A stretch of 64,000 bases of DNA from Mycolicibacterium porcinum (lineage in GTDB: Bacteria > Actinomycetota > Actinomycetes > Mycobacteriales > Mycobacteriaceae): NCBI GenBank assembly GCA_001942045.1, contig MSTD01000011.1, positions 79,252 through 143,251 of the forward strand, in the 5' to 3' direction. This document shows, piece by piece, positions 2,181-54,133 of this stretch. The position numbers and the translations under genes are program-made. The notes beneath the pieces are model-generated. The model saw nothing but the letters and a program-made list of their open reading frames with translations. It ran no database searches and had not been told where the DNA came from. Every line of letters starts with the position of its first letter. Position 1 is the stretch's first letter.

Positions 2181-2195
2181 TACTTCTCCCTGGTG

Positions 2196-3353
2196 TCAGT
2201 CGATGAGCTCGACCAGCGTGGCGTTGGCGGTACCGCCGCCCTCACACATGGTCTGCAGGCCGTAACGAATACCGTTGTCGCGCATGTGATTGATCATCCG
2301 GGTCATCAGCACCGCGCCCGACGCACCGAGCGGGTGTCCCAACGCGATGGCGCCGCCCAGCGGGTTCAGTTTCGCCTCGTCGGCACCCGTCTCGGCCAGC
2401 CAGGCCAGGGGCACCGGGGCGAAGGCCTCGTTCACCTCGAACACGCCGACCTCGTCGAGGCGCACGCCGGCCTTGTGCAGCACCTTCTCGGTGGCCGGGA
2501 TGGGCCCGGTGAGCATCAACACCGGATCCGCTCCCGTCACCGCGCCCGCGCGGTACCGTGCGATCGGCGAAAGGCCCATGGCCACAGCGGCTTCCGCCGT
2601 CATCACCAACAGTGCTGCGGCCCCGTCGGAGATCTGCGAGGAGTTGCCCGCGTGGATCACCCCGTCCTCGGCGAACGCCGGCTTCAGGCCGGCCAGCTTC
2701 TCCACGGTGGTGCCCCGGCGCACGCCTTCGTCGGCGACCACCGGCTCGAGCTGATCGGCCGGGTCGGGAAAGACGGTGATCATCTGGTTCTCGAAGGCGC
2801 CGCGGTCCTGGGCGGCCGCGGCCCGCTCATGTGAGGCGACGGAATACTCGTCCAACTCAGTCCGGCTGAAACCCCACTTCTGCGCGATCATCTCGGCTGA
2901 GATGCCCTGGTTGAACGCGAAATTCTGGTACCGCTCAAACACTTTCGGTCCGTACGGAGTGCCGGTGGCCCGAGCCGCGCCGAGCGGCACCTTGCTCATC
3001 ACCTCGACTCCGCCGGCGACCACGACGTCCTGCTGGCCCGACATCACGGCCTGGACCGCGAAATCCAGTGCCTGCTGACTGGATCCACAGGCCCGGTTGA
3101 CCGTGGTGCCCGGGATATGTTCGGGCCAGCCCGCAGCCAGCACCGAGTAGCGGCCGATGTTGCTCGACTGGTCACCGACCTGGGACACGCACCCCCAGAC
3201 CACGTCGTCGATGATGTCGGGGCTGATGCCGGCCCGCTCCACCAGGGCATTGAGCACCAGCGCGGACAGGTCGGCGGCGTGGAACCCGGACAGGCCGCCG
3301 TTACGCTTGCCGACCGGGGTGCGGACGGCCTCGACGATGACGGTTTCGCGCAT
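2196..3353 (-). CDS. Thiolase (acetyl-CoA C-acyltransferase)
   Basis: A 385-aa thiolase-superfamily enzyme predicted to cleave 3-ketoacyl-CoA with CoA. The nucleophilic Cys is in TTVNRACGSSQQALDFA (about residue 87). The other active-site elements are VNEAFAPVPLAW, LGHPLGASGAVLMTR and the C-terminal MCEGGGTANAT, which carries the second Cys. ATG 3353 follows GAGGAGA. It sits between the CoA-transferase (17 bp gap) and the acyl-CoA dehydrogenase, giving this operon the first and last steps of a beta-oxidation turn. No hydratase is present in this operon. Confidence 0.95.
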   Translation of the reverse strand: MRETVIVEAVRTPVGKRNGGLSGFHAADLSALVLNALVERAGISPDIIDDVVWGCVSQVGDQSSNIGRYSVLAAGWPEHIPGTTVNRACGSSQQALDFAVQAVMSGQQDVVVAGGVEVMSKVPLGAARATGTPYGPKVFERYQNFAFNQGISAEMIAQKWGFSRTELDEYSVASHERAAAAQDRGAFENQMITVFPDPADQLEPVVADEGVRRGTTVEKLAGLKPAFAEDGVIHAGNSSQISDGAAALLVMTAEAAVAMGLSPIARYRAGAVTGADPVLMLTGPIPATEKVLHKAGVRLDEVGVFEVNEAFAPVPLAWLAETGADEAKLNPLGGAIALGHPLGASGAVLMTRMINHMRDNGIRYGLQTMCEGGGTANATLVELID

Positions 3354-3370
3354 GGGATTCTCCTCTAGAA

Positions 3371-4606
3371 CTAAGACTGGTAAGCCGGGCCGATCGCGCC
3401 CTGCTCGCGCAGCACGGCGATCTGCTCGACGCTCAGGCCGATCCCGGCCAAGACAGCATCGGTGTGCTCACCGAGGCCAGGAACGGCACCCATGCCCAAC
3501 TCCATACCGGTGATCACCGGCGGCGGCAACAGGGCCGAGATCTCTCCGCGAGGTGTGTCCACCTGCCGCCACCGGTCGCGCGCCCGCAGGTGCGGATGGG
3601 TGACGACCTCACTCGGCAGGTTGTAGCGCGAGTTGCCGATGCCAGCGTCGTCGGCGATCTGCTGAATCTCTTCGAGATCATGCTGGGCACACCAGGATTC
3701 GATGGCCTTGTTCAGCTCGTCCCGATGGGCACAGCGGTCGGAGTTGGTGGCGAACCGCGGTTCGTCGGCGAGGTCGGGACGTTCGATGATCTCGCGGGCA
3801 AGCCGCTGCCACTCGCGGTCGTTGGTGGTCCCGAGCACGACGGTCTGCCCGTCACGGGTGTCGAACGCGCCGTAGGGCGCCACCGCGGGCGAGCTCATCC
3901 CCAGCGGAATCTGGTCGATCCCGGAGTGCTGGGTGTAGGTCAGCTGGTAGCCCATGATGTCGGTCATGGTGTCGAACAGGCTGACCGCCACGGCCGGCGC
4001 CGGGTCCGTCGAGCCGTTCCGGGCCCGGCCGAGCAGCAGCGCCATGATGGACAGCGCCGAATACAGCCCGGTGGTGATATCAGCCACCGCCGCACCAGGT
4101 TTGGCCGGCATCCCGGCATAACCGGTCGACGCGCAGGAACCGGACTCGGCCTGGACCAGCAGGTCGTAGGCACGCTTGTGCGAAAGCGGCCCACCGGGGC
4201 CGTATCCGTCGATCTCCAGGGGGATCACCTGCGGGTGCCGGACCTTGAGATCCTCGGGCCCGAGCCCCAGCCGCGCAGTGGCACCGGGAGCGAGGTTGGA
4301 AACGAAGGCGTCGGCGCGAGAGAGCAGTCGGTGCAGCACCTCCATCCCCTCCGGGGACTTCAGGTTGAGGGTGATCGATTCCTTGCCCCGGTTGGCCCAC
4401 ACGAAATGAGCCGCTTGGCCGAGCACGACATCGTCGTAATCCCGGGCGAAGTCGCCGCCCTTGGGGTTCTCGATCTTGATCACCCGCGCCCCGAAGTCCG
4501 CCAGCACCCGGGTGCACATCGGAGCCGAGACCGCCTGCTCCATCGCGATGACGGTGATTCCGGTCAGCGGCAGTCCGTCCGGCCGCTGCTGAGAAAATTC
4601 GGTCAC
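3371..4606 (-). CDS. CaiB/BaiF (family III) CoA-transferase
   Basis: A protein of about 411 aa of the formyl-CoA-transferase-like family, which moves CoA between carboxylic acids through an aspartyl-CoA anhydride. The N-terminal CoA-binding fold shows VLADFGARVIKIENPKGGD. The catalytic Asp is present in YDLLVQAESG (about residue 160). The frame extends upstream to 4669 inside the SDR gene. I chose GTG 4606, four bases after the SDR stop, because the protein then begins with the usual short lead before the LTGITVIAMEQ strand. It probably activates a degradation intermediate for the thiolase/dehydrogenase genes of the same operon. Confidence 0.9.
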   Translation of the reverse strand: MTEFSQQRPDGLPLTGITVIAMEQAVSAPMCTRVLADFGARVIKIENPKGGDFARDYDDVVLGQAAHFVWANRGKESITLNLKSPEGMEVLHRLLSRADAFVSNLAPGATARLGLGPEDLKVRHPQVIPLEIDGYGPGGPLSHKRAYDLLVQAESGSCASTGYAGMPAKPGAAVADITTGLYSALSIMALLLGRARNGSTDPAPAVAVSLFDTMTDIMGYQLTYTQHSGIDQIPLGMSSPAVAPYGAFDTRDGQTVVLGTTNDREWQRLAREIIERPDLADEPRFATNSDRCAHRDELNKAIESWCAQHDLEEIQQIADDAGIGNSRYNLPSEVVTHPHLRARDRWRQVDTPRGEISALLPPPVITGMELGMGAVPGLGEHTDAVLAGIGLSVEQIAVLREQGAIGPAYQS

Positions 4607-4610
4607 AAGC

Positions 4611-5369
4611 TCACATAACCATGCCGCCATCGACCGGGAGTACCTGCCCGGTGATGTACGACGCGGCATCGGAGGCCAGGAAGACGAAGGCGCCCGCGAC
4701 CTCGTCGGCCTCGGCCCACCGCTTGAGCGGGATGCGGTTCATCATGTTGGCCGCGAACTTCTCGTTGGTGCGGATGGTTTCGGTCATCGGCGTCGCCGCC
4801 AGCGGCGCCAGGGCGTTGACCATGATGTTCTTGGTCGCCAGCTCACGGGCCAGCGATTTGGTGAACCCGATCAGGCCGGCCTTGGCCGCCGAGTAGTTCA
4901 CCTGGCCCAGGGTGCCGGTGATGCCCGCCGACGAGGTGACGTTGATGACACGACCGGTCCCGTCGGTGGGGATGTGCGGCAGCGCGGCCTGTGTGACGTG
5001 GAAAGTACCCATGACGTGGATGTCGAAGGTGACCCGGAATGTCTCGTCGGTCAGCTTGGGGAACATCGCCGGCGATGTGACTCCCGCGTTGTTGACCACG
5101 ATGTGCAGGTTGCCTGCGCCCAGAGCGGCCGCCTGCGCGGTGGCGGCCTCTGCCGCGGCCCGGTCACTGACGTCGAGGGCCGCGCTGTCCGCCTTGCCGC
5201 CGGCGGTATTGATCCGCTCGGCGACTGACGCTGCCGCCTCACCGCTGATGTCGGTGACGAGCACCGACGCGCCGGCCGCGGCCAATGCCTCGGAAACGGC
5301 CGCGCCGATCCCGGCACCCGCGCCGGTCACCAGGGCCGAACGTCCGGTCAGGTCGAAATAGGTCCTCAT
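4611..5369 (-). CDS. SDR family oxidoreductase
   Basis: A 252-aa classical short-chain dehydrogenase. TGAGAGIG (residues 15-22) binds the dinucleotide, with the acidic residue of VTDIS favouring NAD(H). NNAG, Ser in NVTSSAG, YSAAK and the C-terminal DGG of VDGGMVM complete the set. It likely oxidises a secondary alcohol or 3-hydroxyacyl-CoA. It lies 15 bp after the acyl-CoA dehydrogenase and 4 bp before the CoA-transferase, so it is co-translated with both. Confidence 0.93.
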   Translation of the reverse strand: MRTYFDLTGRSALVTGAGAGIGAAVSEALAAAGASVLVTDISGEAAASVAERINTAGGKADSAALDVSDRAAAEAATAQAAALGAGNLHIVVNNAGVTSPAMFPKLTDETFRVTFDIHVMGTFHVTQAALPHIPTDGTGRVINVTSSAGITGTLGQVNYSAAKAGLIGFTKSLARELATKNIMVNALAPLAATPMTETIRTNEKFAANMMNRIPLKRWAEADEVAGAFVFLASDAASYITGQVLPVDGGMVM

Positions 5370-5384
5370 GGATCTGAATGTCTC

Positions 5385-6575
5385 CTAGTAGCTCTTGGGC
5401 AGTCCGAGAACGTTCGCGCTGAGGAAGTTCAGGATCATCTCCTGGCTGACCGGCGCGATCTTCATCAGTCGGGACTCCCGGAAGAACCGGGAGATGTTGT
5501 ACTCCTCGGAGTAGCCCATGCCGCCGTGGGTCTGCAGCGCGCGGTCGGCCGCGCCGAATCCTGCATCGGCACAGAGGTATTTGGCCATGTTGGCCTCTCG
5601 ACCGCACGGCTTGCCGTTGTCGTAGAGCCAGGTGGCCTTGCGCAGGATCAGTTCGGCGGCATCCAAGCGAGCCAGTGAGTCCGCGAGCGGGAACTGGATG
5701 CCCTGGTTCATACCGATGGGCCGGTCGAACACCACACGTTCGTTCGCGTACTTGACCGCCCGGTCCAGGGCCACGCGGCCGATGCCGAGGGCCTCGGCCG
5801 CGATCAGCATCCGCTCCGGGTTGAGCCCGTGCAGGATGTAGGAGAACCCCTTGCCCTCCTCGCCGATCCGGTGCTCGGCGGGCACCCGCAGGTCGTCGAT
5901 GAACAACTCGTTGGAGCTCACCGCGTTCCGGCCCATCTTGTTGATCGGCCGGATCTCGACGTGGTCACGGTCGAGGTCGGTCAGGAACAGCGTGAGCCCC
6001 TCGGTCGGCTTCCCGCCGCGTTTCTCCACGTCCTCACGGGCTTCCGTGCGGGTGAGCAGCAGGATCTTCTCGGACTCAAGGGCTTTCGAGATCCACACCT
6101 TGCGACCATTGACCACATAACTGTCGCCGTCTTTCTTGGCGAACGTGGTGATGCGCGAGGTATCCAGGCCGGCACCGGGCTCGGTGACGCCGAAGCACAC
6201 ATGAAGGTCCCCGTTGACGATGCGCGGCAGCGTCGCCTTCTTCATTTCCTCGGAACCGAACACCACCACCGGCTGCATCCCGAAGATCGACATGTGAATC
6301 GCGCTGGCGGCGTTCATCGCTCCGCCGGAGCGGGCCACTTCCTCGGCCAGGATGGTGGCCTCGGTGATTCCGAGGCCGTGTCCCCCGTACTCCTCGGGAA
6401 TCGTCATCCCGAGCCAGCCACCACCGGCGATGGCGTCGTAGAACTCCTGCGGGAACTCGTGGGCCTGGTCCTTGGTCATCCAATAGTGATCGTCGAACTT
6501 GCCCGCCAGCTCCGCCACCGATTTGCGGATCAGCTGCTGGTCCTCGGTCAGCTCGAAGTTCATACCGCCCGACAC
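5385..6575 (-). CDS. Acyl-CoA dehydrogenase
   Basis: A 396-aa ACAD. FGVTEPGAGLDTSRITTFA is the FAD-contact motif, with VNGRKVWIS following. LQTHGGMGYSEEYNISRFFR is the C-terminal FAD-pocket segment. The tail motif is IAPVSQEM rather than YEGTxE, so the base, if present, is elsewhere. GTG 6575 has AGGAG 9 nt upstream; the in-frame ATG at 6563 is too far from it. Second gene of the operon led by the amidohydrolase. Confidence 0.93.
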   Translation of the reverse strand: MSGGMNFELTEDQQLIRKSVAELAGKFDDHYWMTKDQAHEFPQEFYDAIAGGGWLGMTIPEEYGGHGLGITEATILAEEVARSGGAMNAASAIHMSIFGMQPVVVFGSEEMKKATLPRIVNGDLHVCFGVTEPGAGLDTSRITTFAKKDGDSYVVNGRKVWISKALESEKILLLTRTEAREDVEKRGGKPTEGLTLFLTDLDRDHVEIRPINKMGRNAVSSNELFIDDLRVPAEHRIGEEGKGFSYILHGLNPERMLIAAEALGIGRVALDRAVKYANERVVFDRPIGMNQGIQFPLADSLARLDAAELILRKATWLYDNGKPCGREANMAKYLCADAGFGAADRALQTHGGMGYSEEYNISRFFRESRLMKIAPVSQEMILNFLSANVLGLPKSY

Positions 6576-6617
6576 TTGTGTGCTCTCCTAGTTTTCTCGG
6601 CCGAGTAGTCTCGGCGT

Positions 6618-7913
6618 TCAGTCCCGCGCGCCGGCAACGGCTTTGGCATTGGCCTGGAAGTCGGCGAACGTGGTGCCGGTCTTCTCCTTGTGGCTCAGCG
6701 CGCGGATCGACACGTCGTGCCCCTCGGCGGCCTTGCGCAGCGCGCCCACGGTGGCCTGGTCCTTGGGTACGTGCGCGAACGGCTCGAAGTGGTAGAGCCG
6801 CATGGCGTTCTCGTGGGTGATCTTATTGATCTCGTCGTCGGGGACCTCGTAGGTTTCGAACACCGCGTGCAGTTCCTCGGGGGCGCCCGGCCACATCGAA
6901 TCCGAATGCGGGTAGTCCATCTCCCAGCAGATGTTGTCGACGCCGATCTCGTGACGGTTCTTCACCCCGACCGGGTCGGAGATGAAGCAGGTCATGAAGT
7001 GCTCCCGAAAAACCTCCGAGGGCAGCTTGCCGCCGAAGTCCTGGTGCGTCCACGTCGAGTGCATGTCATAGGTGCGGTCTACCCGGTCCAGGAAGTAGGG
7101 AATCCACCCGGTGCCGCCCTCGGACAGCGCGATCTTGAGGCCGGGGTACGCCTTGATCGGTGCCGACCACAACAGGTCCGCCGCGGCCTGCACGATGTTC
7201 ATCGGCTGCAGCGTGATCATCACGTCCATGGGGGCGTCCGGCGCGGTGATCGCCAGCTTGCCCGACGATCCGATGTGCACGTTCATCACGGTGTCGGTGT
7301 CAACCAGGGCCTCCCACAACGGCTTCCAGTACTCAAGGTCGTGGAAGGACGGGTATCCCAGCGTCGACGGGTTCTCGGTGAAGGTCAGCGAGTGCACACC
7401 CTTCTTCGACACCCGCCGCACCTCGTCGGCACACAGCTGCGGATTCCAGATCGCCGGAATGGCCATCGGGATGAAGCGCCCCGGGTTCGACCCGCACCAC
7501 TCGTCGATGTGCCAGTCGTTGTAGGCCTGCACCAATGCCAGCGAGAACTCGTCGTCGTCGGTAGCGAACAGCCGGGCAGCGAATCCCGGGAACGACGGGA
7601 AGTTCATGGTCGCCAGCACACCGCCGGCGTTCATGTCCTTGACCCGCTCGTTCGGGTCGTAGCAGCCCTTGCGGATCTCATCGAGCCCCTGCGGCTCCAG
7701 TCCGTACTCCTCTTTGGGCCGGCCGGCCACCGCGTTGAGTGCCACGTTCGGGATCACGGTGTCCCGGAACTGCCAGGTGTCACTCCCGTCCGGGTTGTGC
7801 ACCAGCCGCGGTGCCTCGTCGCGGTATTTGGCCGGCAGATGGTTCTTGAACATGTTCGGCGGTTCGATGATGTGGTCGTCGACGCTGATCAAGATCATGT
7901 CGTCTTTGTGCAC
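6618..7913 (-). CDS. Amidohydrolase family protein (amidohydrolase-2 type)
   Basis: A protein of about 431 aa with a TIM-barrel metallohydrolase fold of the ACMSD/amidohydrolase-2 group. The N-terminal ILISVDDHIIEPPNMF supplies the DxH-like metal motif in the form DDHxxEP. Later segments are MNVHIGSSG, ALSEGGTGWIPYFLDRVDRTY and the metal-binding WEMDYPHSDSMWPG. Such proteins hydrolyse or decarboxylate ring-derived acids; the substrate is unknown. GTG 7913 has GGAG 7 nt upstream, better than the GTG at 7940. It leads the minus-strand operon. The promoter region 7946-7984 carries four alternating GAGAA/TTCTC half-sites. A paralogue lies at 25307-26470. Confidence 0.88.
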   Translation of the reverse strand: MHKDDMILISVDDHIIEPPNMFKNHLPAKYRDEAPRLVHNPDGSDTWQFRDTVIPNVALNAVAGRPKEEYGLEPQGLDEIRKGCYDPNERVKDMNAGGVLATMNFPSFPGFAARLFATDDDEFSLALVQAYNDWHIDEWCGSNPGRFIPMAIPAIWNPQLCADEVRRVSKKGVHSLTFTENPSTLGYPSFHDLEYWKPLWEALVDTDTVMNVHIGSSGKLAITAPDAPMDVMITLQPMNIVQAAADLLWSAPIKAYPGLKIALSEGGTGWIPYFLDRVDRTYDMHSTWTHQDFGGKLPSEVFREHFMTCFISDPVGVKNRHEIGVDNICWEMDYPHSDSMWPGAPEELHAVFETYEVPDDEINKITHENAMRLYHFEPFAHVPKDQATVGALRKAAEGHDVSIRALSHKEKTGTTFADFQANAKAVAGARD

Positions 7914-7945
7914 TGCCTCGCTCCGTCCCTTGGCCGTCACATTGG

Positions 7946-7984
7946 TTCTCTATGAGAGAAAACTAGCTTCTCCATTCGCGAGAA
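7946..7984. promoter_or_regulatory. Cluster of alternating TTCTC/GAGAA half-sites
   Basis: TTCTC starts at 7946, GAGAA at 7956, TTCTC at 7968 and GAGAA at 7980. They form TTCTC-N5-GAGAA, GAGAA-N7-TTCTC and TTCTC-N7-GAGAA combinations within 39 bp, directly upstream of the amidohydrolase start (7913). The half-sites match the palindrome seen at other promoters here, but the order and spacing differ. Probable regulatory region of the minus-strand operon. Confidence 0.45.
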
Positions 7985-8090
7985 TCAATGTCTGAGCCCG
8001 CTGACATGGAGATTTAGCCTGGTCACCACACAACCTGGTGCGTTCTTGTTGACCATCGGGGCAAAAGGTGGAAACCTCTTAGTCGGAAAT

Positions 8091-8105
8091 GAGAACCTGA
8101 TTCTC
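8091..8105. promoter_or_regulatory. Palindromic operator GAGAA-N5-TTCTC (Rieske operon)
   Basis: GAGAACCTGATTCTC is a perfect 5-bp-arm inverted repeat with a 5-nt spacer, 44 bp upstream of the GTG of the CMD-like gene at 8150 and about 178 bp from the divergent amidohydrolase start. The same arrangement recurs at 16506, 39359, 43920 and 49651. Confidence 0.6.
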
Positions 8106-8149
8106 GCAACCGAGAGTCGGTGCCGGGTCATCGAGAGGAGAACCGCCCC

Positions 8150-8680
8150 GTGCGCTTGGCCCCCTTGCCCGCCGAGGAGTGGGACGACGACGTGCGACGA
8201 GCGCTGTCGGTCATGCTTCCGGAGGAGCGGCTCAACCCCGAGGGTGCGGGAACCGCATTGTCGACGCTGGCCCGCCATCCCGCGCTGACCAAGGCGTTCT
8301 TGCGGTTCAGCAACCACCTGCTGTTCCGCTCGACGCTGGACCCGCAGATGCGTGAGCTCGCCATCCTGCGGATCGCGCATCGCAAGAACTGCGAGTACGA
8401 GTGGGCGCACCACGCGTTCATCGGCAAGTCCGAGGGACTCACCGATGAGCAGATCGCGAGCAGCACGAGCGGCGAAGGTTCCACTCCCCTCGACCAACTC
8501 GTGCTCGACTCGGTCGACGAACTCGACGGCCAATCCGAGATCTCGGACGGCACCTGGGCCGCACTGAGTGAGCACCTCGACGAGCGCCAGCGCATGGACC
8601 TGGTCTTCACGATCGGCGGCTACGGCCTGATGGCCATGGCCTACAACACCTTTGGAATCGCGCCGGAATCCGGCCACTAA
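8150..8680 (+). CDS. Carboxymuconolactone decarboxylase (AhpD-like) family protein
   Basis: A 176-aa protein with the CMD/AhpD helical core: LFRSTLDPQMRELAILRIAH followed by NCEYEWAHHAFIGKSEGLT. The single Cys (NCEYEW) has no second Cys, so this is not a redox-active CxxC peroxidase-type AhpD. It resembles the decarboxylase/isomerase-like branch. Start GTG 8150 is preceded by GAGAGGAG at suitable spacing; the upstream ATG at 8120 lacks this. First gene of the plus-strand operon, 22 bp before the Rieske oxygenase, downstream of a GAGAA-N5-TTCTC palindrome. Its reaction is unknown. Confidence 0.85.
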   Translation: MRLAPLPAEEWDDDVRRALSVMLPEERLNPEGAGTALSTLARHPALTKAFLRFSNHLLFRSTLDPQMRELAILRIAHRKNCEYEWAHHAFIGKSEGLTDEQIASSTSGEGSTPLDQLVLDSVDELDGQSEISDGTWAALSEHLDERQRMDLVFTIGGYGLMAMAYNTFGIAPESGH

Positions 8681-8702
8681 CTCAAGAAGAAAGTAGAGGT
8701 AG

Positions 8703-10052
8703 ATGATGGCGTTCTTCCCGAAGCCGGCCGTCGGCAGCTGGACCGAGAACTGGCCCGAATTGGGCACCGCCCCGGTCAACTACGAGGACTCGATCGATCC
8801 CGAGCACTGGAAGCTGGAGCAGCAGGCCATCTTCCGCAAGACCTGGTTGCAGATGGGCCGGGTGGAGCTGATTCCCAAGAAGGGCAGCTACATCACCCGG
8901 GAGCTGCCATCGGTCGGTCCCGGCACCTCGATCATCATCGTCAACGACGGAGACCAGATCCGCGCCTTCTACAACCTGTGCCGCCACCGCGGAAACAAGT
9001 TGGTGTGGAACGACTACCCGGGCGAAGAAGTCTCCGGCAGCTGCCGCCAGTTCGTCTGCAAGTACCACGCCTGGCGTTACAGCCTCAAGGGCGACCTGAC
9101 GTTCATCCAGCAGGAGCAGGAGTTCTTCGACGTCGACAAGGCCGACTACCCACTCAAGCCGGTGCGCTGCGAGGTGTGGGAGGGCTTCATCTTCGTCAAC
9201 TTCGACGACGACGCGGTGTCACTCGAGGAGTACCTGGGCGAGTTCGCCGAGGGTCTCAAGGGCTACCCGTTCCACGAGATGACCGAGCACTACAGCTACC
9301 GCTCGGAGATCAAGGCCAACTGGAAGCTGTTCATCGACGCGTTCGTCGAGTTCTACCACGCGCCGATCCTGCACATGAAGCAGGCCGAGAAGGAGGAAGC
9401 CGAGAAGCTGGCCAAGTTCGGCTTCGAAGCGTTGCACTACGACATCAAGGGCGATCACTCGATGATCTCGTCCTGGGGCGGCATGAGCCCGCCGAAGGAC
9501 CTCAAAATGGTCAAGCCGATCGAGCGCATCCTGCACAGTGGCTTGTTCGGGCCCTGGGATCGCCCCGACATCAAGGGCATCCTGCCCGACGAGTTGCCGC
9601 CGGCGATCAATCCCGGACGGCACTCCACGTGGGGACAGGACTCTTTCGAGTTCTTCCCGAATTTCACCCTGCTGTTCTGGGCGCCGGGCTGGTATCTGAC
9701 CTACAACTACTGGCCCACCGGTGTCGACAGCCACATCTTCGAGGCCGACCTGTACTTCGTGCCGCCGAAGAACCTGCGCGAGCGGCTGTCCCAGGAACTG
9801 GCCGCCGTGACGTTCAAGGAGTACGCGTTCCAGGACGCCAACACGCTGGAAGCCACCCAGACCCAGATCGGCACCCGCGCCGTGCTCGACTTCCCGCTGT
9901 GCGACCAGGAAATTCTGCTGCGCCACCTGCACCACACCGCGCACAAGTACGTCGACCGGTACAAGGAATCCACGTCCAACGGGAACGGCTCGACCAACGG
10001 CAAGCACGCCCCGACCGAGAAGGCCGCAGAAAAGGATGCCGCAAATGTCTAA
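8703..10052 (+). CDS. Rieske [2Fe-2S] aromatic-ring-hydroxylating-type oxygenase, alpha subunit
   Basis: A 449-aa terminal oxygenase. The Rieske cluster motif is split as CRH (about residue 97) and CKYH (about residue 120), matching CxH...CxxH. The catalytic domain contains NWKLFIDAFVEFYHAPILH, which fits the mononuclear-iron ligands (DxxxEFYH...H). Residues after about 420 form a low-complexity linker rich in S, N, G and K. No reductase or small beta subunit is adjacent; the next gene is a 109-aa protein of unrecognised family. Electrons must come from a ferredoxin and reductase elsewhere. The orphan [2Fe-2S] ferredoxin at 49700 shares the operator type and is a candidate. Confidence 0.92.
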   Translation: MMAFFPKPAVGSWTENWPELGTAPVNYEDSIDPEHWKLEQQAIFRKTWLQMGRVELIPKKGSYITRELPSVGPGTSIIIVNDGDQIRAFYNLCRHRGNKLVWNDYPGEEVSGSCRQFVCKYHAWRYSLKGDLTFIQQEQEFFDVDKADYPLKPVRCEVWEGFIFVNFDDDAVSLEEYLGEFAEGLKGYPFHEMTEHYSYRSEIKANWKLFIDAFVEFYHAPILHMKQAEKEEAEKLAKFGFEALHYDIKGDHSMISSWGGMSPPKDLKMVKPIERILHSGLFGPWDRPDIKGILPDELPPAINPGRHSTWGQDSFEFFPNFTLLFWAPGWYLTYNYWPTGVDSHIFEADLYFVPPKNLRERLSQELAAVTFKEYAFQDANTLEATQTQIGTRAVLDFPLCDQEILLRHLHHTAHKYVDRYKESTSNGNGSTNGKHAPTEKAAEKDAANV

Positions 10053-10374
10053 GTTGCCAGAGGAATTCGCCGACCTGGAGCGGTTCAGCGACTGGTGCCT
10101 GCCCACCGAGGAGGAGCGCTATCAGAAGCGGCTCAACTCCTCGATGGAGGAGATGCAGGCACTGTACGACGCCGGCATGGCGCGCCTCGAAGACATCATG
10201 GTCTACGTCGATGCCCGCTTCCCGCTCAAGAGCATGCCCGACGACGCCAAGGCACTGGTGCACCTCGGTCAATCCATCGTCATGGTGAGCTTCCCGGTCG
10301 AGGTGTGGAAGCAACCGCGGGTGCTCGACAGCGGTGCGGCCTACATCAAACTCATCAAGGAGCCGGTGGTCTAG
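10045..10374 (+). CDS. Small conserved protein linked to the Rieske oxygenase (109 aa)
   Basis: It starts at ATG 10045, overlapping the Rieske stop codon by 8 bp, with AAGGA 8 nt upstream; the ATG at 10036 is too close to that site. The protein is acidic at the N-terminus (SKLPEEFADLERFSDWCLP), then helical, and ends in a possible beta region (IVMVSFPVEVWKQPRVLDSG). It has one Cys and no cofactor motif. The translational overlap suggests a stoichiometric partner of the oxygenase, taking the place of a classical beta subunit. That is inference; I do not recognise the family. Confidence 0.75.
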   Translation: MSKLPEEFADLERFSDWCLPTEEERYQKRLNSSMEEMQALYDAGMARLEDIMVYVDARFPLKSMPDDAKALVHLGQSIVMVSFPVEVWKQPRVLDSGAAYIKLIKEPVV

Positions 10375-10376
10375 GC

Positions 10377-11610
<1,234 letters not shown>

Positions 11611-11627
<17 letters not shown>

Positions 11628-12069
11628 TGGGCCGGGCGCCCCACCGACACGTACCGAGGATCTGATCGAGATCCAGCAGGTGCTCGCCAAGTATGCGGTA
11701 ACCATCACCCAGGGCGACATCGACGGTCTGATCAGTGTTTTCACACCCGACGGCACCTACAGCGCATTCGGCGAGACCTACACGCTGAATCGCTTCCCGG
11801 TACTGGTGGACGCCGCTCCCAAGGGCCTGTTCATGACCGGCACCGCCCTCATCGACCTGGTCGAGGGGGCCGATACGGCATCGGGAACCCAGCCGCTGTG
11901 CTTCATCGAGCACTCCAAGCACGACATGCGCATCGGCTACTACCGGGACACCTACGAGCGGACCGCCGAGGGCTGGCGACTGAAGACCCGGGCGATGACC
12001 TTTATCCGGCGCAACGGCGACCACGACCACGGCCGGCCGCACGCGATCGGCAGGCCGGAAGCCGGATGA
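11611..12069 (+). CDS. SnoaL-like / nuclear transport factor 2-like domain protein
   Basis: A 152-aa protein with the NTF2-like cone fold of the SnoaL_4 type: an N-terminal helix (TEDLIEIQQVLAKYAVTITQGD), then DGLISVFTPDGTYSAFG, and a C-terminal strand pair ending RTAEGWRLKTRAMTFIRRNGD. Such proteins act as isomerases, cyclases or hydroxylating-dioxygenase-type small subunits. The ATG overlaps the amidohydrolase end by 17 bp, so translation is coupled. It might serve as the beta-subunit-like partner of the Rieske oxygenase, which otherwise has none, but length and position alone do not prove this. Confidence 0.82.
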
Positions 12070-12118
12070 GCGAGCGTAGCGAGCGAATGACAGATCTGGA
12101 GTGCGGGAGCCGAGCATG
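12070..12118 (+). repeat. Intergenic repeat-like element GCGAGCGTAGCGAGCG
   Basis: Between the SnoaL-like and acyl-CoA dehydrogenase genes lies a segment with a short GAGCG/GCGAGCG reiteration followed by a GGAGTGCGGGAGCC block. I recall similar blocks between genes in other mycobacterial genomes, but only one copy is visible here, so the repeat status rests on memory. Confidence 0.3.
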
Positions 12119-12130
12119 CGAGGCAACCGC

Positions 12131-13255
12131 ATGAGCGAGCTCTTCGAACCTGCGACTTTTCGTGCGGCACTGCAGGATTGGCTCGCGGCGAACGACCTGA
12201 CACCGCCAGACGACCACACGCTGTCAGGTCACATCCGCCAGTTCGCCCGCGTGCAGAAGGCGCTGTACGACGGCGGCTGGAGCCGCTACGGCTGGCCTGA
12301 GCACGCCGGCGGACTGGGCGGCCCGGCGATGCTGCGCGCCATCGTCGGTGAGGAGGTCGTGGGCCGCAGACTGGCCGAACCCGGCCCGTACTCGATGCTG
12401 GAAGTACTGGCGCCGACGATGATCGACTACGCGCCCAAGGAACTGGCCGCCGAGATGGTGCCGAAACTGCTGTCCGGCGAAGAGCAGTGGTGCCAGGGCT
12501 TCTCCGAACCCGGCTCCGGCAGCGACCTGGCTTCGCTGACCACTCGCGCGGTCCAGCGCGAGGACGGCAAGTGGATCGTCAACGGTCAGAAGGTCTGGAC
12601 CAGCTTCGCCCAGTACTCGCACCGCTGCATCCTGCTGACCCGCACCGGCGACGCCGACACTCCGAATCATCGGGCGATCACCGCGTTCTTCGTCGACACC
12701 GACTCCCCCGGCGTCACGGTCCGGCCGTTGCGCACCATGCACGATGTGGACGAGTTCTGCGAGGTGTACTTCGACGACGTCGAGGTCGACGAGAGCCGAA
12801 TGCTCGGCAAGCCGGGCGACGGCTGGCAGCTGGCGATGGACCTGCTGCCATACGAGCGTTCAACCTGCTTCTGGCAGCGCATCGCCTACCTGTACTCGCG
12901 GTTCGACGCCCTCGTCGAAGCGGTGAAACGGCAAGGGCAGGTGGTGGATCCGGACCTCGGCGAGGTCTACCTGGCTCTGCACACGCTGCGCTGTCGTTCG
13001 GCGGCAACCCAGCACCGGCTGGCCGAGGGCCACAAGTTGGGGCCGGACACCTCGATCGACAAGGTGCTCCTGGCGAGTGCCGAACAGCTGCTCTACGACA
13101 CCGCACGCAATCTGATGCCCGGCGTCATCGAGCTCGAGGACTCCGAATGGCGCACCGAGTACCTGTATTCGCGGGCGTCGACCATCTATGGCGGCACGGC
13201 CGAGGTGCAGCGCAACATCATCGCCCGCCGGCTGCTCGACCTCGGGAAGGAGTGA
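12131..13255 (+). CDS. Acyl-CoA dehydrogenase, long (alpha-type) partner
   Basis: A protein of about 374 aa. It shows GFSEPGSGSDLASLTTRA (FAD contact), VNGQKVWTSFA, and the C-terminal YSRASTIYGGTAEVQRNI motif. The motif is typical of the larger partner in alpha2beta2 ACADs that act on steroid side-chain or bulky acyl-CoAs. ATG 12131 has GAGG 7 nt upstream and is preferred over 12101. It is followed after 3 bp by a second, shorter ACAD. The pair probably forms one heteromeric enzyme that oxidises the acyl-CoA produced by the Rieske-operon pathway. Confidence 0.9.
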   Translation: MSELFEPATFRAALQDWLAANDLTPPDDHTLSGHIRQFARVQKALYDGGWSRYGWPEHAGGLGGPAMLRAIVGEEVVGRRLAEPGPYSMLEVLAPTMIDYAPKELAAEMVPKLLSGEEQWCQGFSEPGSGSDLASLTTRAVQREDGKWIVNGQKVWTSFAQYSHRCILLTRTGDADTPNHRAITAFFVDTDSPGVTVRPLRTMHDVDEFCEVYFDDVEVDESRMLGKPGDGWQLAMDLLPYERSTCFWQRIAYLYSRFDALVEAVKRQGQVVDPDLGEVYLALHTLRCRSAATQHRLAEGHKLGPDTSIDKVLLASAEQLLYDTARNLMPGVIELEDSEWRTEYLYSRASTIYGGTAEVQRNIIARRLLDLGKE

Positions 13256-14076: not shown

Positions 14077-14134
14077 CGAGCAGACATGAAACTGCCCATT
14101 TTCACGCGAAAGTGGGCAGCTTTATGTCTGCTCG
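14077..14134. terminator. Long-stem palindrome between convergent genes (CGAGCAGAC family)
   Basis: Arms 14077-14103 and 14108-14134 pair at 24 of 27 positions with a 4-nt loop (ACGC). The outer arm is CGAGCAGACAT / ATGTCTGCTCG. It sits between the ACAD gene (+) and the adenylate cyclase (-) and overlaps the cyclase stop codon, so it can terminate both. It lacks a T-run. The same outer arm recurs at 45493-45550. Confidence 0.65.
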
Positions 14135-15618
14135 CGCTCTGGGACAAGGGGTTCGGCGAAGACTGTCGCCGTCGACCGGCCGCGCAGCACCGTCGAACCG
14201 CGCACCACCCAGTGCCGCCCTTCGTCGGCATCCGCATGGGCAAGCGCACTGCCCGAACACAACACCGTCGACTCGCGGTCCTTGGCGTGGTCGGCCAATC
14301 GCGCCGCCTCGTTGACCGCGTCACCGATCACGGTGTATTCGTAACGGTTCTCGGCTCCGATGTTGCCGGCGAACACCGAACCACACGAAATGCCCACGCC
14401 GAACTCCACATCCGGCAGTTGGTGCAGCCGTGGCACCAACGCCCGGGCGGTGGCCAGGGCCGAGGAGGCCGGGTTGTCCAGCCGCAGCGGCGCACCGAAC
14501 ACGGCGAGCACGGCGTCACCCTCGAACTTGTTGATCAGCCCGTGATGGCGCTCGACGGTGTCCACCACGATCTTGAAGAACCCGTTGAGCAACTGGGCGA
14601 CCTCCTCGGGCGGACGCGACGCACCCAGTGCCGTCGAGCCGACTAGGTCGACGTAGAGAACGGCGGCCTCCCGAACGTCACCGGCGACCGCTCCGCCCTG
14701 CTGCAGCGCATGGCGGGCCACATCGACACCGACGTAGCGACCGAACAGGTCCCGCAACCGATTCCGCTCGGCCAGGCCCGCCAGCATCCGGTTGAATCCG
14801 TGTTGGAGCCGGCCGATCTCTGATGGCTCGTACACCTTGACCGAGACTCCGGACCAGCCGCGTTCCACCGCTTTCATGGCCAGCACCACTTCGCCGACCG
14901 GGTCCGATACCGACCGCGCCACCAGCACCATCGACCGAAGTCCGAAGACCAGTGAGATGACGGCCAGCACCAGCACCGCCGCCTCGACCGGCGCTGTCTT
15001 CTGCACGAACCAGCCGTTGGACCGCGCCAAGACGATCAGCGCGATGCCGGCCAGGGGCAGCCCGCTGAACAGGGTCCAGATCGTGACCAGCCGGGCCAGC
15101 ACGCCGGGCATCCGCACGATCGTGGACGAGGAGTCGGTCAGTGACGCGGCGACGATCGGTCGCAACATCCGTTGCGTCACCAGGAATCCCATGCAGGCGG
15201 CGGCGATCCCGCCGAAGAGGATCGCACCGCCCATCACGTACGCGACACCTCCCCCGACATCGAGGTTCAGCAGCGTGTACACGAGCGCGCTCACCGCCCA
15301 GGTGGTGAACTGGATGATGGTCTGACGAGGGGCGATGCGCATGGCGGCGCGCTGCTGTTGCGGCGTCGGCTTGTCCCCCGCGGCAAACCATTTGAACGTC
15401 GGGTGGACGTTCACCCACCCCACGATCGTGTCGACGATCGCTGCCGCCACCATCAGCGCGATGAGTGCGACCAAGTTGGCCCAAGTCAGTAGCTCACGAG
15501 CGTCGCCGACGGTGTTGCGACTGAGCGCCAGCACGACGAGCGTCACGGCCGCCGCAGCGGTGGTCTGCGCGTAGATCTGCCTGGCCGCGTAACTCACACT
15601 GAGCCGGATCGCCCCCAT
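14122..15618 (-). CDS. Membrane adenylate cyclase, class III, six-TM + HAMP
   Basis: A 498-aa enzyme making cAMP from ATP. Six hydrophobic segments occupy roughly residues 10-290 (for example VTLVVLALS, LVALIALMVAAAIVDTIVGW, AYVMGGAILFGGIAAACMGF). A HAMP-like linker follows (SDPVGEVVLAMKAVERG). The catalytic domain (about 300-480) has the first metal Asp in LYVDLVGSTAL, NKFEGDAVLAVFG with the adenine-specifying Lys and second Asp, and YTVIGDAVNEAARL with the base-contact Asp and transition-state Asn/Arg. All key residues look intact. This is the architecture of the mycobacterial Rv1318c-type cyclases. It is convergent with the Rieske operon and has no obvious metabolic link. Confidence 0.93.
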   Translation of the reverse strand: MGAIRLSVSYAARQIYAQTTAAAAVTLVVLALSRNTVGDARELLTWANLVALIALMVAAAIVDTIVGWVNVHPTFKWFAAGDKPTPQQQRAAMRIAPRQTIIQFTTWAVSALVYTLLNLDVGGGVAYVMGGAILFGGIAAACMGFLVTQRMLRPIVAASLTDSSSTIVRMPGVLARLVTIWTLFSGLPLAGIALIVLARSNGWFVQKTAPVEAAVLVLAVISLVFGLRSMVLVARSVSDPVGEVVLAMKAVERGWSGVSVKVYEPSEIGRLQHGFNRMLAGLAERNRLRDLFGRYVGVDVARHALQQGGAVAGDVREAAVLYVDLVGSTALGASRPPEEVAQLLNGFFKIVVDTVERHHGLINKFEGDAVLAVFGAPLRLDNPASSALATARALVPRLHQLPDVEFGVGISCGSVFAGNIGAENRYEYTVIGDAVNEAARLADHAKDRESTVLCSGSALAHADADEGRHWVVRGSTVLRGRSTATVFAEPLVPEREQT

Positions 15619-15633: not shown

Positions 15634-16416
15634 CTACTTGATGTTCTGCTTCATTCCGTCGATATCCATCAGCACCGGCCATCCGCTGACGCTAAGCGCA
15701 TTGCCGTGCCCGGTCTGGTGAATATCGAACACCGATTGGATCGCGGCATAGAAACCCTGTACGTCGAGCGTCTGGTTGACCGCGCGCTTGGCCTGACGGA
15801 GCGCGAACGCCGGCATCTGCGCGATCTGGGCGGCCAACTCGGCCGTCTGGGCGTCGAGCTCGTCGCGCGGCACCACCCGGTTGACCATGCCGGTGCGCTC
15901 GGCTTCCTCCGCAGTCAGCGCCCGGCCGGTGAACAGGATCTCCTTGGCCTTGCGGGCACCGAGCTCCCAGGTGTGGCCGTGGTACTCGACACCGCCGATA
16001 CCCATCAGCGCCACCGGATCGGAGAACAGCGCGTCGTCGGCGGCCAGGATCAGATCGCATGGCCAGCACAGCAGGAGACCGCCGGAGATGCAGCGTCCCT
16101 GGACCGCCGCGATCGACGGCTTGGGCACGTTGCGCCATCTCAGCGTGTACTCCAGATAGCGCCGCGACTCGTGCTCGATGAGGAATTCCAGCGTGACCTT
16201 GTCCGGCACCGGCCCACCGCCGCGCAGGTCATGCCCCGCGGAGAAGTGCTTGCCGTTGGCGCGCAGCACAATAACCTTCACCTCACGGTCATCGGCGGCC
16301 CTGGTCCAGGCGGCGTCGAGCTCATCGAGGAGTTCCGGGTTCTGCGCGTTGGCTGCCTCCGGCCGGTTGAGCGTGATCGTGGCGACCGAATCGGCGACGT
16401 CGTAGTCGATGTACAC
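15634..16416 (-). CDS. Enoyl-CoA hydratase/isomerase family protein
   Basis: A protein of about 260 aa with the crotonase fold. TITLNRPEAANAQNPEL opens the fold, GKHFSAGHDLRG holds the first oxyanion element, and AAVQGRCISGGLLLCWPCDLILA the second. The position usually held by the second catalytic Glu falls in a SDPVALMGIGGVEYHG region. GTG 16416 has AAGGA at 5 nt; the frame's upstream start at 16482 has no such site and would lie in the promoter region. It is divergent from the TetR gene at 16643, with a GAGAA-N5-TTCTC palindrome between them. Confidence 0.9.
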   Translation of the reverse strand: MYIDYDVADSVATITLNRPEAANAQNPELLDELDAAWTRAADDREVKVIVLRANGKHFSAGHDLRGGGPVPDKVTLEFLIEHESRRYLEYTLRWRNVPKPSIAAVQGRCISGGLLLCWPCDLILAADDALFSDPVALMGIGGVEYHGHTWELGARKAKEILFTGRALTAEEAERTGMVNRVVPRDELDAQTAELAAQIAQMPAFALRQAKRAVNQTLDVQGFYAAIQSVFDIHQTGHGNALSVSGWPVLMDIDGMKQNIK

Positions 16417-16503
16417 GTGTTTCCTTCTGTTCACAGCTGCCACACGGCGGCACCGATTTTGATGTGAAACCCTTCTTCTCAAAGGACTTCTATAATTCCC
16501 ATC

Positions 16504-16522
16504 GTGAGAATACTATTCTCAC
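16504..16522. promoter_or_regulatory. Palindromic operator GTGAGAATA-C-TATTCTCAC
   Basis: A perfect 9-bp-arm inverted repeat with a 1-nt centre. Its core is GAGAA-N5-TTCTC (16506-16520). It is the most symmetrical copy of the motif in the window. It lies 88 bp from the hydratase start (16416, -) and about 120 bp from the TetR start (16643, +), so it can control both. Autoregulation by this TetR is the simplest reading. Confidence 0.7.
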
Positions 16523-16642
16523 AACACGAAAGTTACAATCTCCGACACGTTGGCCGCGAGGGGGTCTGGCACCACAATGGCAAGGCGTTCTCCGGTACAG
16601 TCAGTTCATGTTCTCCCCACTCGACAAGCGTCGGAGCAGCCA

Positions 16643-17296
16643 GTGACCACCGCTGGCGAAGAACCCGCGTGGAAGCAACGAGCTGTCGAGCGGTCCATCA
16701 AAACCGCCAAGTTGCGCGCCGCCCAGCGGGTGCAACGGTTCCTGGACGCGGCCCAGGCGATCATCATCGAAAAGGGCAGCACCGACTTCACGGTGCAAGA
16801 GGTCGTTGACCGCTCCCGCCAGTCGCTACGCAGCTTCTACCTGCAGTTCGACGGCAAGCACGAGCTGCTGCTGGCACTGTTCGAGGACGCGTTGAGCCGC
16901 TCGGCGGATCAGATCCGGGCCGCGACCTCGACACAGGGCGAGCCGATCGAACGCCTCAAGGTCGCCATCCAGCTGCTCTTCGAATCGTCCCGGCCCGACC
17001 CGGCCGCCAAGCGCCCGCTGTTCACCGACTTCGCGCCGCGTTTGCTGGTTTCGCATCCATCAGAGGTCAAGGTCGCGCACGCACCACTGCTGGCACTGCT
17101 GACCGAGCTCATGGAGGAAGCCTCCGAGGCCGGCCAGCTACGCCCCGGAATCAACCCGCGACGAATGGCTGCGATGACCATGCAGACCGTGATGTTCGTC
17201 GCACAGTCCAGCGGCGGCGCCGACGAAGCCTCGGCCAATCCGATCACCGCCGATGAGGTCTGGGACTTCGTGGCCAACGGATTCGCCGCCAGCTAG
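16643..17296 (+). CDS. TetR family regulator, candidate master regulator of the GAGAA-N5-TTCTC regulon
   Basis: A protein of about 217 aa. The helix-turn-helix is at residues 25-75: RVQRFLDAAQAIIIEKGS, then TVQEVVDRSRQSLRSFYLQF and DGKHELLLALFEDAL. The C-terminal ligand domain has a conserved-looking RPLFTDFAPRLLVSHPSEV segment. GTG 16643 has GGAG 6 nt upstream; the frame opens earlier at 16550 but without support. Its promoter contains the most perfect GAGAA-N5-TTCTC palindrome, and it is the only TetR in the window associated with that motif. The TetRs at 262 and 27921 have different operators. Binding is inferred, not shown. Confidence 0.87.
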   Translation: MTTAGEEPAWKQRAVERSIKTAKLRAAQRVQRFLDAAQAIIIEKGSTDFTVQEVVDRSRQSLRSFYLQFDGKHELLLALFEDALSRSADQIRAATSTQGEPIERLKVAIQLLFESSRPDPAAKRPLFTDFAPRLLVSHPSEVKVAHAPLLALLTELMEEASEAGQLRPGINPRRMAAMTMQTVMFVAQSSGGADEASANPITADEVWDFVANGFAAS

Positions 17297-17297
17297 C

Positions 17298-17462
17298 TCA
17301 GAATTTCGTTCTCCTAATAAAAGAACTCTCTTTACGCTCAGGCGTGAGCTCGATCTCCGGAGTCACCGTCATCGCGTCGCACAGCAGGCGACCCGCACCG
17401 TCGGAGTCCACGCCGTGCGCTCGATCGTCGACCACCCGCACCCCGAACGGAGCGGTGTTCAT
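17298..17462 (-). pseudogene. Short ORF, possible 3' remnant of a decayed gene
   Basis: A 54-aa frame from ATG 17462 to TGA 17298 with strong GC3 over most of its length: MNTAPFGVRVVDDRAHGVDS, then GAGRLLCDAMTVTPEIEL. Its last 15 codons are AT-rich. It has no family I recognise and no good ribosome-binding site. The frame continues upstream to 17549 through a hairpin, which argues against a full gene. The best reading is the C-terminal end of a lost protein or a small unknown protein. Confidence 0.35.
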
Positions 17463-17831: not shown

Positions 17832-18677
17832 ATGACTGGACGGGTGGAAGGCAAGGTCGCGTTCGTCACCGGCGCGGCGCGTGGCCAGGGACGTAGCCAC
17901 GCGGTACGGCTGGCGCAAGAGGGCGCCGACATCATCGCGATCGACATCTGTGGACCGATCCGGCCCGGCGTGGAGACCGCCATCCCGGCCTCCACCTCCG
18001 ATGACCTGGCCGAGACCGCCAACCTCATCAAAGGACTCAACCGCCGCGTCGTGACCGCCGAGGTCGACGTACGCGATGCGGAGGCGATCAAAGCCGCCGT
18101 GGACAGCGGTGTCGAGCAGCTCGGCCGCCTCGACATCATCGTGGCCAACGCCGGAATCGGCAACGGCGGTGACGTGCTACACGAGACCAGCCAGCTGGAC
18201 TGGGACGAGATGATCGACATCAACCTGTCGGGCGTCTGGAAGTCGGTCAAGGCTGGGGTGCCCCACCTGATCGAGGGCGGTCGCGGCGGCTCGATCATCC
18301 TGACCAGTTCGGTCGGCGGACTCAAGGCGTACCCGCACTGCGGCAACTACGTCGCTGCCAAGCACGGTGTCGTCGGCCTGATGCGCGGCTTCGCCGTGGA
18401 GCTGGGCCAGCACAACATCCGTTGCAACAGCGTGCATCCCACGCACGTGGCGACGCCGATGCTGCACAACGACGGCACGTTCAAGATGTTCCGGCCCGAC
18501 CTGGAGAACCCGGGCCCGGACGACATGGCGCCGATTTGCCAGCTGTTCCACACTCTGCCCATTCCGTGGGTCGAGGCCGTGGATATCAGCAACGCTGTAC
18601 TGTTCCTGGCCTCCGACGAGGCCCGCTACGTCACCGGTGTGACGCTGCCGGTCGACGCGGGAAGCTGCCTCAAGTAG
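17832..18677 (+). CDS. Mycofactocin-coupled SDR family oxidoreductase
   Basis: A 281-aa short-chain dehydrogenase with the features of the mycofactocin-dependent group. The glycine motif is TGAARGQGRSHAVRLAQEGA, the acidic cofactor residue is in IIAIDICGPI, and there is an insertion after the second strand (residues 45-65). Catalytic Ser is in LTSSVGG and Tyr/Lys in YVAAK. Relatives such as carveol dehydrogenase keep NAD(H) bound and need the peptide-derived cofactor mycofactocin as electron acceptor. The mycofactocin biosynthesis genes are not in the window. It likely oxidises a cyclic or terpenoid-like alcohol. Transcribed alone; convergent with the SDR at 18688. Confidence 0.88.
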   Translation: MTGRVEGKVAFVTGAARGQGRSHAVRLAQEGADIIAIDICGPIRPGVETAIPASTSDDLAETANLIKGLNRRVVTAEVDVRDAEAIKAAVDSGVEQLGRLDIIVANAGIGNGGDVLHETSQLDWDEMIDINLSGVWKSVKAGVPHLIEGGRGGSIILTSSVGGLKAYPHCGNYVAAKHGVVGLMRGFAVELGQHNIRCNSVHPTHVATPMLHNDGTFKMFRPDLENPGPDDMAPICQLFHTLPIPWVEAVDISNAVLFLASDEARYVTGVTLPVDAGSCLK

Positions 18678-39357: not shown

Positions 39358-39374
39358 GGAGAATGCTATTCTCC
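39358..39374. promoter_or_regulatory. Palindromic operator GGAGAATGCTATTCTCC (mhp operon / IclR)
   Basis: GAGAA-N5-TTCTC core at 39359-39373, extended by one G/C pair. It is 21 bp from the mhpC-like start (39337, -) and 94 bp from the IclR start (39468, +). The TATTCT within it resembles a -10 box, so binding could block a promoter. Confidence 0.65.
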
Positions 39375-42722: not shown

Positions 42723-42733
42723 CACGGTCGACA

Positions 42734-43919: not shown

Positions 43920-43934
43920 GAGAATGTTATTCTC
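43920..43934. promoter_or_regulatory. Palindromic operator GAGAA-N5-TTCTC (thiolase / SDR)
   Basis: GAGAATGTTATTCTC, perfect arms, between the divergent thiolase (start 43894, 25 bp) and SDR (start 43972, 37 bp). The compact 77-bp intergenic region means the site must overlap or abut both promoters. Confidence 0.65.
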
Positions 43935-44736: not shown

Positions 44737-44748
44737 TAGTCTGTCGCG

Positions 44749-49585: not shown

Positions 49586-49650
49586 GGTCCAACCCCTTTC
49601 CCCAGACACCGCTGGGCGTCGAGCCCGCCGAGAAGATACTATCAGTTAGC

Positions 49651-49665
49651 GAGAATGGTATTCTC
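49651..49665. promoter_or_regulatory. Palindromic operator GAGAA-N5-TTCTC (CoA ligase / ferredoxin)
   Basis: GAGAATGGTATTCTC, perfect arms, between the divergent CoA ligase (start 49585) and ferredoxin (start 49700, 34 bp). TGGTATTCT inside the site resembles an extended -10 element. Confidence 0.65.

Positions 49666-52543: not shown

Positions 52544-54133
<1,590 letters not shown>

Follow-up and report, generated by a model that had tools for sequence, protein, structure and literature searches.

We found that a palindrome, GAGAATA-N-TATTCTC, recurs between divergent catabolic genes and, with a probability of roughly 0.86, we take it to be the operator of the TetR family regulator encoded at 16577-17296 (+), which would be an autoregulated repressor of catabolic operons. 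Very probably, as judged from comparison of genomes, this one neighbouring repressor docks at the palindrome and so switches a breakdown gene set on the scale of 100 kb in many non-tuberculous mycobacteria and their relatives.

The palindrome and its copies

In a pattern scan of the window (the whole stretch of 64,000 nucleotides analysed here; 66% GC), GAGAA-N5-TTCTC was found in perfect copies at 8091, 16506, 39359, 43920 and 49651, the same five that a preliminary description of this DNA had listed. That description held random occurrence to be very unlikely. Indeed, in 400 dinucleotide shuffles of the window the 10-bp form occurred 0.03 times on average and once at most, and the 12-bp form, GAGAAT-N3-ATTCTC, which is present four times in the window, did not appear in any shuffle. 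The copy count set against the shuffles thus rules out chance as the origin of the motif cluster; the palindrome is real, far beyond chance. Among the 141 perfect 5-bp inverted repeats with a 5-bp spacer in the window, which have 99 distinct arms, the GAGAA arm accounts for five copies and no other arm of the same GC content for more than one. GC-rich arms equal or exceed it (CGGCC, nine copies; CCGCG, five), as is to be expected from the GC content of the window.

All five perfect copies are intergenic and flanked by divergent genes once start codons are reassigned (hydrolase ATG39337, thiolase ATG43894, short-chain dehydrogenase (SDR) ATG43972 and ferredoxin ATG49700), so the earlier statement that each copy lies in a short intergenic region holds for 5/5 with these starts. 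The divergent pairs are amidohydrolase/CMD-Rieske, hydratase/TetR, hydrolase/IclR, thiolase/SDR and CoA ligase/ferredoxin. The window also contains four one-mismatch copies, at 7958, 17299, 17683 and 38894. The last of these sits within a gene and, for that reason, is probably a chance coding match. The preliminary description had given 17299 and 17683 as near copies; 17299 is borne out by its perfect counterpart in most relatives (see below), but the list had left out 7958.

The putative operator of the TetR gene, GAGAATACTATTCTC (16506-16520), has perfect 7-bp arms and lies between that gene and the divergent gene for an enoyl-CoA hydratase of the PRK08290 type (15634-16482, -; exact start uncertain). 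Directly behind the hydratase gene, and perhaps in the same operon, is a gene for a protein with HAMP and class III nucleotide cyclase domains (14122-15618, -), which may link the regulon to cAMP. The predicted operator GAGAACCTGATTCTC (8091-8105) stands between two operons. The one on the minus strand (1032-7940) encodes an amidohydrolase, an acyl-CoA dehydrogenase, an SDR, a CaiB/BaiF CoA-transferase, a thiolase and another acyl-CoA dehydrogenase; the one on the plus strand starts with a carboxymuconolactone-decarboxylase-family protein (CMD; start GTG8120 or 8150) and a Rieske oxygenase (8703-10052), together 8120-10052, and same-strand genes continue to 14065. The same gap holds the one-mismatch copy GAAAACTAGCTTCTC (7958-7972), the sequence of which is identical in M. 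houstonense (2272027), suggesting a second operator there. It is the first of two weak copies, with one and two mismatches, at 7958-7994, about 97-133 bp from the 8091 site.

The candidate operator GAGAATGCTATTCTC (39359-39373) separates the gene for an alpha/beta hydrolase (38423-39337, -), HsaD-like by a match below the family cut-off, from that for an IclR family regulator (39468-40193, +). The hydrolase and an MhpA-type FAD hydroxylase are the first genes of an mhp-like operon (36751-39337, -). Likewise, GAGAATGTTATTCTC (43920-43934) lies between the gene for a thiolase of 386 aa (42734-43894, -), which is followed by that for a MeaB-like GTPase (41844-42890, -), and two SDR genes (43972-45489, +). 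We rejected the ORF 41868-43469 (+) as a gene, as it has no Pfam match and overlaps the thiolase and MeaB-like genes on the opposite strand. The cluster also encodes a methylmalonyl-CoA-mutase-like protein (52544-54133, -), which, together with the MeaB-like GTPase, perhaps makes up a mutase system that acts on acyl-CoAs with branched carbon skeletons. The remaining perfect copy, GAGAATGGTATTCTC (49651-49665), is placed between the gene for an AMP-forming CoA ligase (48215-49609, -), which heads a gene series that includes two acyl-CoA dehydrogenases and an enoyl-CoA hydratase, and the gene for a 2Fe-2S ferredoxin of 103 aa (49700-50011, +; PF00111).

The TetR regulator and its own promoter

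The product of the gene at 16577-17296 (hereafter TetR16577) matches PF00440 (TetR_N HTH) with an E value of 2.3e-7, above the curated cut-off. It has the N-terminal TetR_N HTH and, at modest confidence, the all-helical fold of the family (predicted model with mean pLDDT of 68; TM about 0.5), and sequence evidence points to an autoregulatory palindromic operator at its own promoter. In a Foldseek search the model matched TetR structures best, including FadR of Thermus and Bacillus and EthR2 (E about 5e-6 to 1e-4). Although identity of TetR16577 to FadR and EthR2 is 15-22% and the model is weak, this structural likeness suggests that its ligand may be an acyl-CoA.

The preliminary description had named this TetR as the best candidate reader of the motif. 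Comparative genomics supports the choice of regulator, but not the start at 16643: ATG16577, preceded by the purine-rich GAGGGGG, is kept with an open leader in 70/70 indel-free loci, and the protein thus has 239 residues. These loci come from a genome-collection scan, in which we analysed the best 80 of 386 relatives (83-98% identity to the TetR, up to 10 kb on each side); the closest relatives of the window were Mycolicibacterium species like M. peregrinum and M. houstonense. A perfect 10-bp copy lies upstream of the TetR orthologue in 80/80 loci, 128-149 bp before the query start, and the spacing is exactly 137 in 70/80, the indel-free set. In these 70 loci GAGAATA-N-TATTCTC is invariant save for its centre base; the bases adjoining the 15-mer vary, and many promoter or leader positions from about 8 bp further downstream are conserved. 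About 13 bp after the operator is the well-conserved TACAAT, which is likely the -10 element; if so, the -35 region would lie under the operator. Among 15 orthologues, residues 29-106 of the protein are invariant but for R81.

The 80 loci (1.56 Mb) contain 221 perfect copies, and 220 of these fall into three intervals, defined by distance, round the TetR gene: 80 in its promoter, 71 upstream (-9800 to -5000, the interval that holds the CMD/Rieske promoter) and 69 just 3' of it, with one copy elsewhere. As the preliminary description had expected, the motif in these loci is not equally frequent in coding regions or unrelated promoters. In the upstream CMD/Rieske interval a perfect copy is present in 61/65 loci that reach 9.6 kb upstream. 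The counterpart of the 17299 site (at +640 to +860 relative to the start of the TetR query) is perfect in 57/80 loci and has at most one mismatch in 70/80, against a background of 0/320 and 1/320, respectively, in slices of equal length. Judged from these relatives, the copy CAGAATTTCGTTCTC (17299-17313), just 3' of the TetR gene and upstream of an SDR gene (17832-18677), is a decayed form of a putative operator that is perfect in most of them.

Co-occurrence of the motif with TetR16577

We compared the distribution of motif and regulators in 151 genomes drawn at family level and 118 drawn at genus level, some of which look incomplete, taking counts from per-genome rows and setting the cut-off for a TetR16577 orthologue at 66% identity or more. 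In the family-level draw, 33/151 genomes encode TetR16577; the 12-bp motif is present in all but one of them (32/33; 160 copies), versus 9/118 of the others (one copy each), an association with a Fisher p of about 2e-23, kinship ignored. In the genus-level draw the motif is found in 93/95 genomes with TetR16577 versus 2/23 without. The scan of related genomes that the preliminary description proposed as a check thus shows the motif following TetR16577 in both draws. One exception among genomes scored as lacking the gene, G220, has the TetR start at a contig end beside the site, the gene being cut; in G199, the only remaining one of the genus-level draw with a site, no cluster gene was found beside it. 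The co-occurrence is partly shared ancestry.

The motif might instead be a terminator or a repeat element, or its copies might cluster by chance, since it is an inverted repeat in several copies. We regard this as extremely improbable: a reversed control pattern gave 0 matches in 151/151 family-level and 117/118 genus-level genomes (a single match, in G251), none of the dinucleotide shuffles reproduces the motif count, the flanks right beside the palindrome are variable, and those copies that we examined are located 5' of genes, for the most part in gaps between divergent ones.

Two other regulators encoded in the window, the IclR at 39468 and a TetR at 27921, were considered as readers. The IclR gene has a perfect copy in its own promoter and is mostly co-inherited with TetR16577 in the genus-level draw. 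However, in the family-level draw close orthologues of IclR and TetR 27921 (at least 72% and at least 69% identity, respectively) are present only in the same 10/151 genomes, and 22 of the 23 genomes that have TetR16577 without them keep the motif, in up to 10 copies (more distant homologues of the two occur in some of these 23). As the motif tracks neither regulator in the 151 genomes, we rejected both; it is very improbable that either reads it, and IclR 39468 is probably a target.

Alternatively, the motif could be read by a different regulator of the cluster, above all the TetR encoded at 262-948, with TetR16577 being only a target. A homologue of TetR 262 (at least 57% identity) is found in 27/151 family-level genomes, all of which have TetR16577, and three genomes (G032, G106 and G119) have an exact site at a distance of 183-189 bp from the aligned portion of that homologue. 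We nevertheless consider this reading unlikely. At E≤1e-40, TetR 262 is absent from 6/33 genomes with TetR16577, including G041 (six copies of the motif) and G131 (four copies). No copy with one mismatch or fewer adjoins its gene in the window or in M. houstonense, and no exact site does so in nine other Mycobacterium genomes. Moreover, two TetR16577 paralogues have the site as well. The 80-locus set ends short of TetR 262, and the co-occurrence evidence on it comes from the 151-genome draw, where TetR 262 appears to track the motif less well than TetR16577, which weakens its case.

The site accompanies TetR16577 beyond its closest relatives. Nine orthologues in other family-level genomes have it 56-58 bp before the estimated start, and the two paralogues (57-59% identity) have it 76-77 bp before theirs. 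The sequence QSLRSFYL in the HTH region is common to all 11 proteins, although only 47-48/78 residues agree in the N-terminal domain of the paralogues. From these genome comparisons we strongly infer that TetR16577 reads the motif.

Recurrent putative targets in other genomes

The 140 kb of M. houstonense DNA analysed (L101-L107) contain nine perfect copies, between 2201021 and 2316532; they span 115 kb, and the 41 kb over which the preliminary description had the palindrome extend was too small. Ten one-mismatch copies lie between 2198179 and 2324014, three of them inside called genes. One, at 2222961, precedes the gene for an aldehyde dehydrogenase, with an SDR gene on the opposite side, and is followed by a CoA-transferase gene, a gap of about 0.46 kb, and then two MlaE/YrbE permease genes and Mce genes. 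Given the gap and the mismatch, control of the Mce importer is only possible. In L102, Mce/MlaE importer genes and those for the CoA-transferase and an Rv0768-like aldehyde dehydrogenase occupy 1666-9626 (-) and 10091-12798 (-).

We then compared the genes beside exact 12-bp sites through their closest matches in the gene set of M. houstonense, leaving out the neighbourhoods of G119. In nine Mycobacterium genomes such a site neighbours the TetR gene (9/9), a CoA ligase and/or ferredoxin gene (nine), acyl-CoA dehydrogenase H2242548 (nine) and amidohydrolase H2199808 (nine). SDR H2310617 has a site in 7/9, the opposite gene being a thiolase in three and MeaB-like H2309726 in four. Hydrolase/IclR (the 39359 site) and CMD/Rieske were each found in five; the 12-bp pattern misses CMD/Rieske sites of the GAGAAC form, such as that at 8091. 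In nine other family-level genomes the numbers are 9/9 for TetR, eight each for H2199808, H2242548 and CMD, six for CoA ligase and three for SDR. In 8/9 of these genomes the divergent partner of TetR is an acyl-CoA dehydrogenase, not a hydratase, and the operator is kept. As expected of one regulon, the operator stands at the same target genes across genomes despite changes in gene order, and the kinds of genes listed as targets in the preliminary description recur beside exact sites among these 18 genomes. Overall, a homologue of a cluster gene (at least 45% identity, within about 300 bp) accompanies 58/64 exact sites in Mycobacterium and 45/55 in the nine other genomes, where 10/55 have no such homologue within that distance.

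Proposed mechanism

We propose that TetR16577, as a dimer, occupies the palindrome in the promoter that it shares with its divergent neighbour, and those of about ten further promoters, most of which belong to this catabolic region; sitting on or next to the -10/-35 elements, it would keep these operons off. An intermediate of the pathway, at a guess most likely an acyl-CoA or a steroid- or terpenoid-like acid, would release the protein, upon which the genes for CoA ligases, P450/ferredoxin, Rieske oxidation and beta-oxidation, and perhaps for the Mce importer, would be turned on together. The sequence analysis shows the motif, where it lies, its conservation, its coupling to TetR16577 and the type of genes that flank it; in this scheme we infer binding, dimer formation, repression rather than activation, the ligand and the substrate.

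The operator contains a -10-like hexamer of the TANNNT type, TATTCT. It faces the gene in 17/17 cases for H2242548, 9/9 for ferredoxin (towards which it also points at 49651), 7/7 for SDR, 7/7 for hydratase and 10/15 for CoA ligase, in about half for TetR (9/20) and H2199808 (8/17), and rarely for CMD (1/12), H2243695 (0/6), hydrolase (0/5) and the MeaB-like gene (0/4). The hexamer inside the operator and the short distance to the starts fit steric repression, as for KstR. Activators of the FasR type exist in the TetR superfamily, and FasR is a weak family match of TetR16577. That TetR16577 activates, or both activates and represses, as FasR does, is nonetheless improbable, since operators near start codons, often containing or adjoining -10-like hexamers, have the usual geometry of repression, and this geometry resembles that of the KstR site, which in the accessible text of PMC1995591 partly overlaps its -10.

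Relation to known regulators

KstR (Rv3574 / MSMEG_6042), as described in the available part of PMC1995591, is likewise an autoregulated TetR repressor with a palindrome in its own promoter and many sites between divergent catabolic genes. However, its operator is TnnAACnnGTTnnA, versus GAGAATANTATTCTC here, and its gene set is another; KstR is also not named among the 27 PDB sequence matches of TetR16577 at E≤0.01. The KstR operator has two matches in the window, at 38457 and 42069 (shuffle mean 0.15, with 1/100 shuffles reaching two), inside the hydrolase gene 38423-39337 and the MeaB-like gene 41844-42890, and none in the target promoters of the window. KstR2 (Rv3557c) resembles the present system as a TetR repressor of a small catabolic regulon, with operators 22-82 bp from most starts and 285 bp from one, according to the accessible text of PMC3068626. 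Its operator, AnCAAGnnCTTGnT, differs and has 0 matches in the window, and TetR16577 matches the solved KstR2 only with an E value of 3.6e-3. On the operator scans of the window we rejected control by KstR or KstR2. The opinion expressed earlier, that the motif is not the consensus of KstR or KstR2, therefore agrees with both operators as given in those parts of the two papers.

The same approach, a search for palindromes in the gaps next to divergent TetR genes of mycobacteria, was taken by Balhana et al. 2015 (PMC4482099). In the accessible text of that paper neither arm of the motif occurs, and the motif table lists, in that part, M. tuberculosis gene numbers. GAGAAT is found in primers in the available part of PMC8228715. 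Text searches for the motif, with subscription papers and regulon databases outside their scope, returned no description of it. Because KstR and KstR2 have other operators and no description was found, we call the regulon new, though of a known kind; apparently, this is a TetR operator with an unusually large, conserved catabolic regulon that is undescribed.

Possible substrate and significance

The acyl-CoA dehydrogenase H2241371 matches the solved Tcur3483 and 4x28, both of which have a steroid role. KstD-like and HsaD-like enzymes are among the gene content, the latter below the family cut-off, and the P450 at 26498 matches the solved CYP105Q4, for which, in the accessible text of PMC6237146, no substrate tested altered the spin state. 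These enzymes together hint at a polycyclic substrate; that it is steroid- or terpenoid-like is a guess.

We lean towards regarding the system as a third large catabolic regulon under TetR control in mycobacteria and their relatives, beside those of KstR and KstR2. In M. houstonense its operators, nine perfect and as many as ten with one mismatch, would extend over about 115-125 kb, and it would comprise P450/ferredoxin, Rieske and flavin oxygenases, paired steroid-type acyl-CoA dehydrogenases and a nucleotide cyclase; an Mce importer may also belong to it. The substrate would be polycyclic (steroid- or terpenoid-like), and many of the operators would have the -10 hexamer built in. Such a regulon would provide one testable switch for a large and poorly understood catabolic region, in a genus in which 95/118 sampled genomes have TetR16577. 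A ligand that releases the repressor would reveal the substrate, with the operator as a ready reporter for that search, and membership in the regulon hints at which orphan genes for P450s, ferredoxins, CoA ligases and acyl-CoA dehydrogenases share one pathway.

Variant and outlying sites

Second TetR copies of about 78% identity were seen in six genomes (L241, L244, L246, L247, L249 and L251). They have GAGAAG-N3-CTTCTC (five) or GAGAATGCCCTTCTC (one) 59-60 bp before the start, a possible operator switch after duplication. Among 20 TetR promoters, picked as exceptions and duplicates and not as a random sample, four had no recognizable operator (L236, L237, L253 and L254) and two a degenerate one (L239 and L240); as these promoters lack a good operator, the single motif in G086, G102, G182 and G214 is not at the TetR gene.

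The six exact sites in Mycobacterium without a cluster-gene homologue are all next to a PfkB gene that lies outside the cluster. Here the palindrome, GAGAATG-N-CATTCTC, which may be another element, lies downstream of a PfkB-family gene (PF00294 in L110; homologues of 77-84% in the other genomes) in 6/10 Mycobacterium genomes and in G214, near position 10000 of L108, L110, L111 and L112, near 2500 of L113 and L170, and near 1501 of L226.
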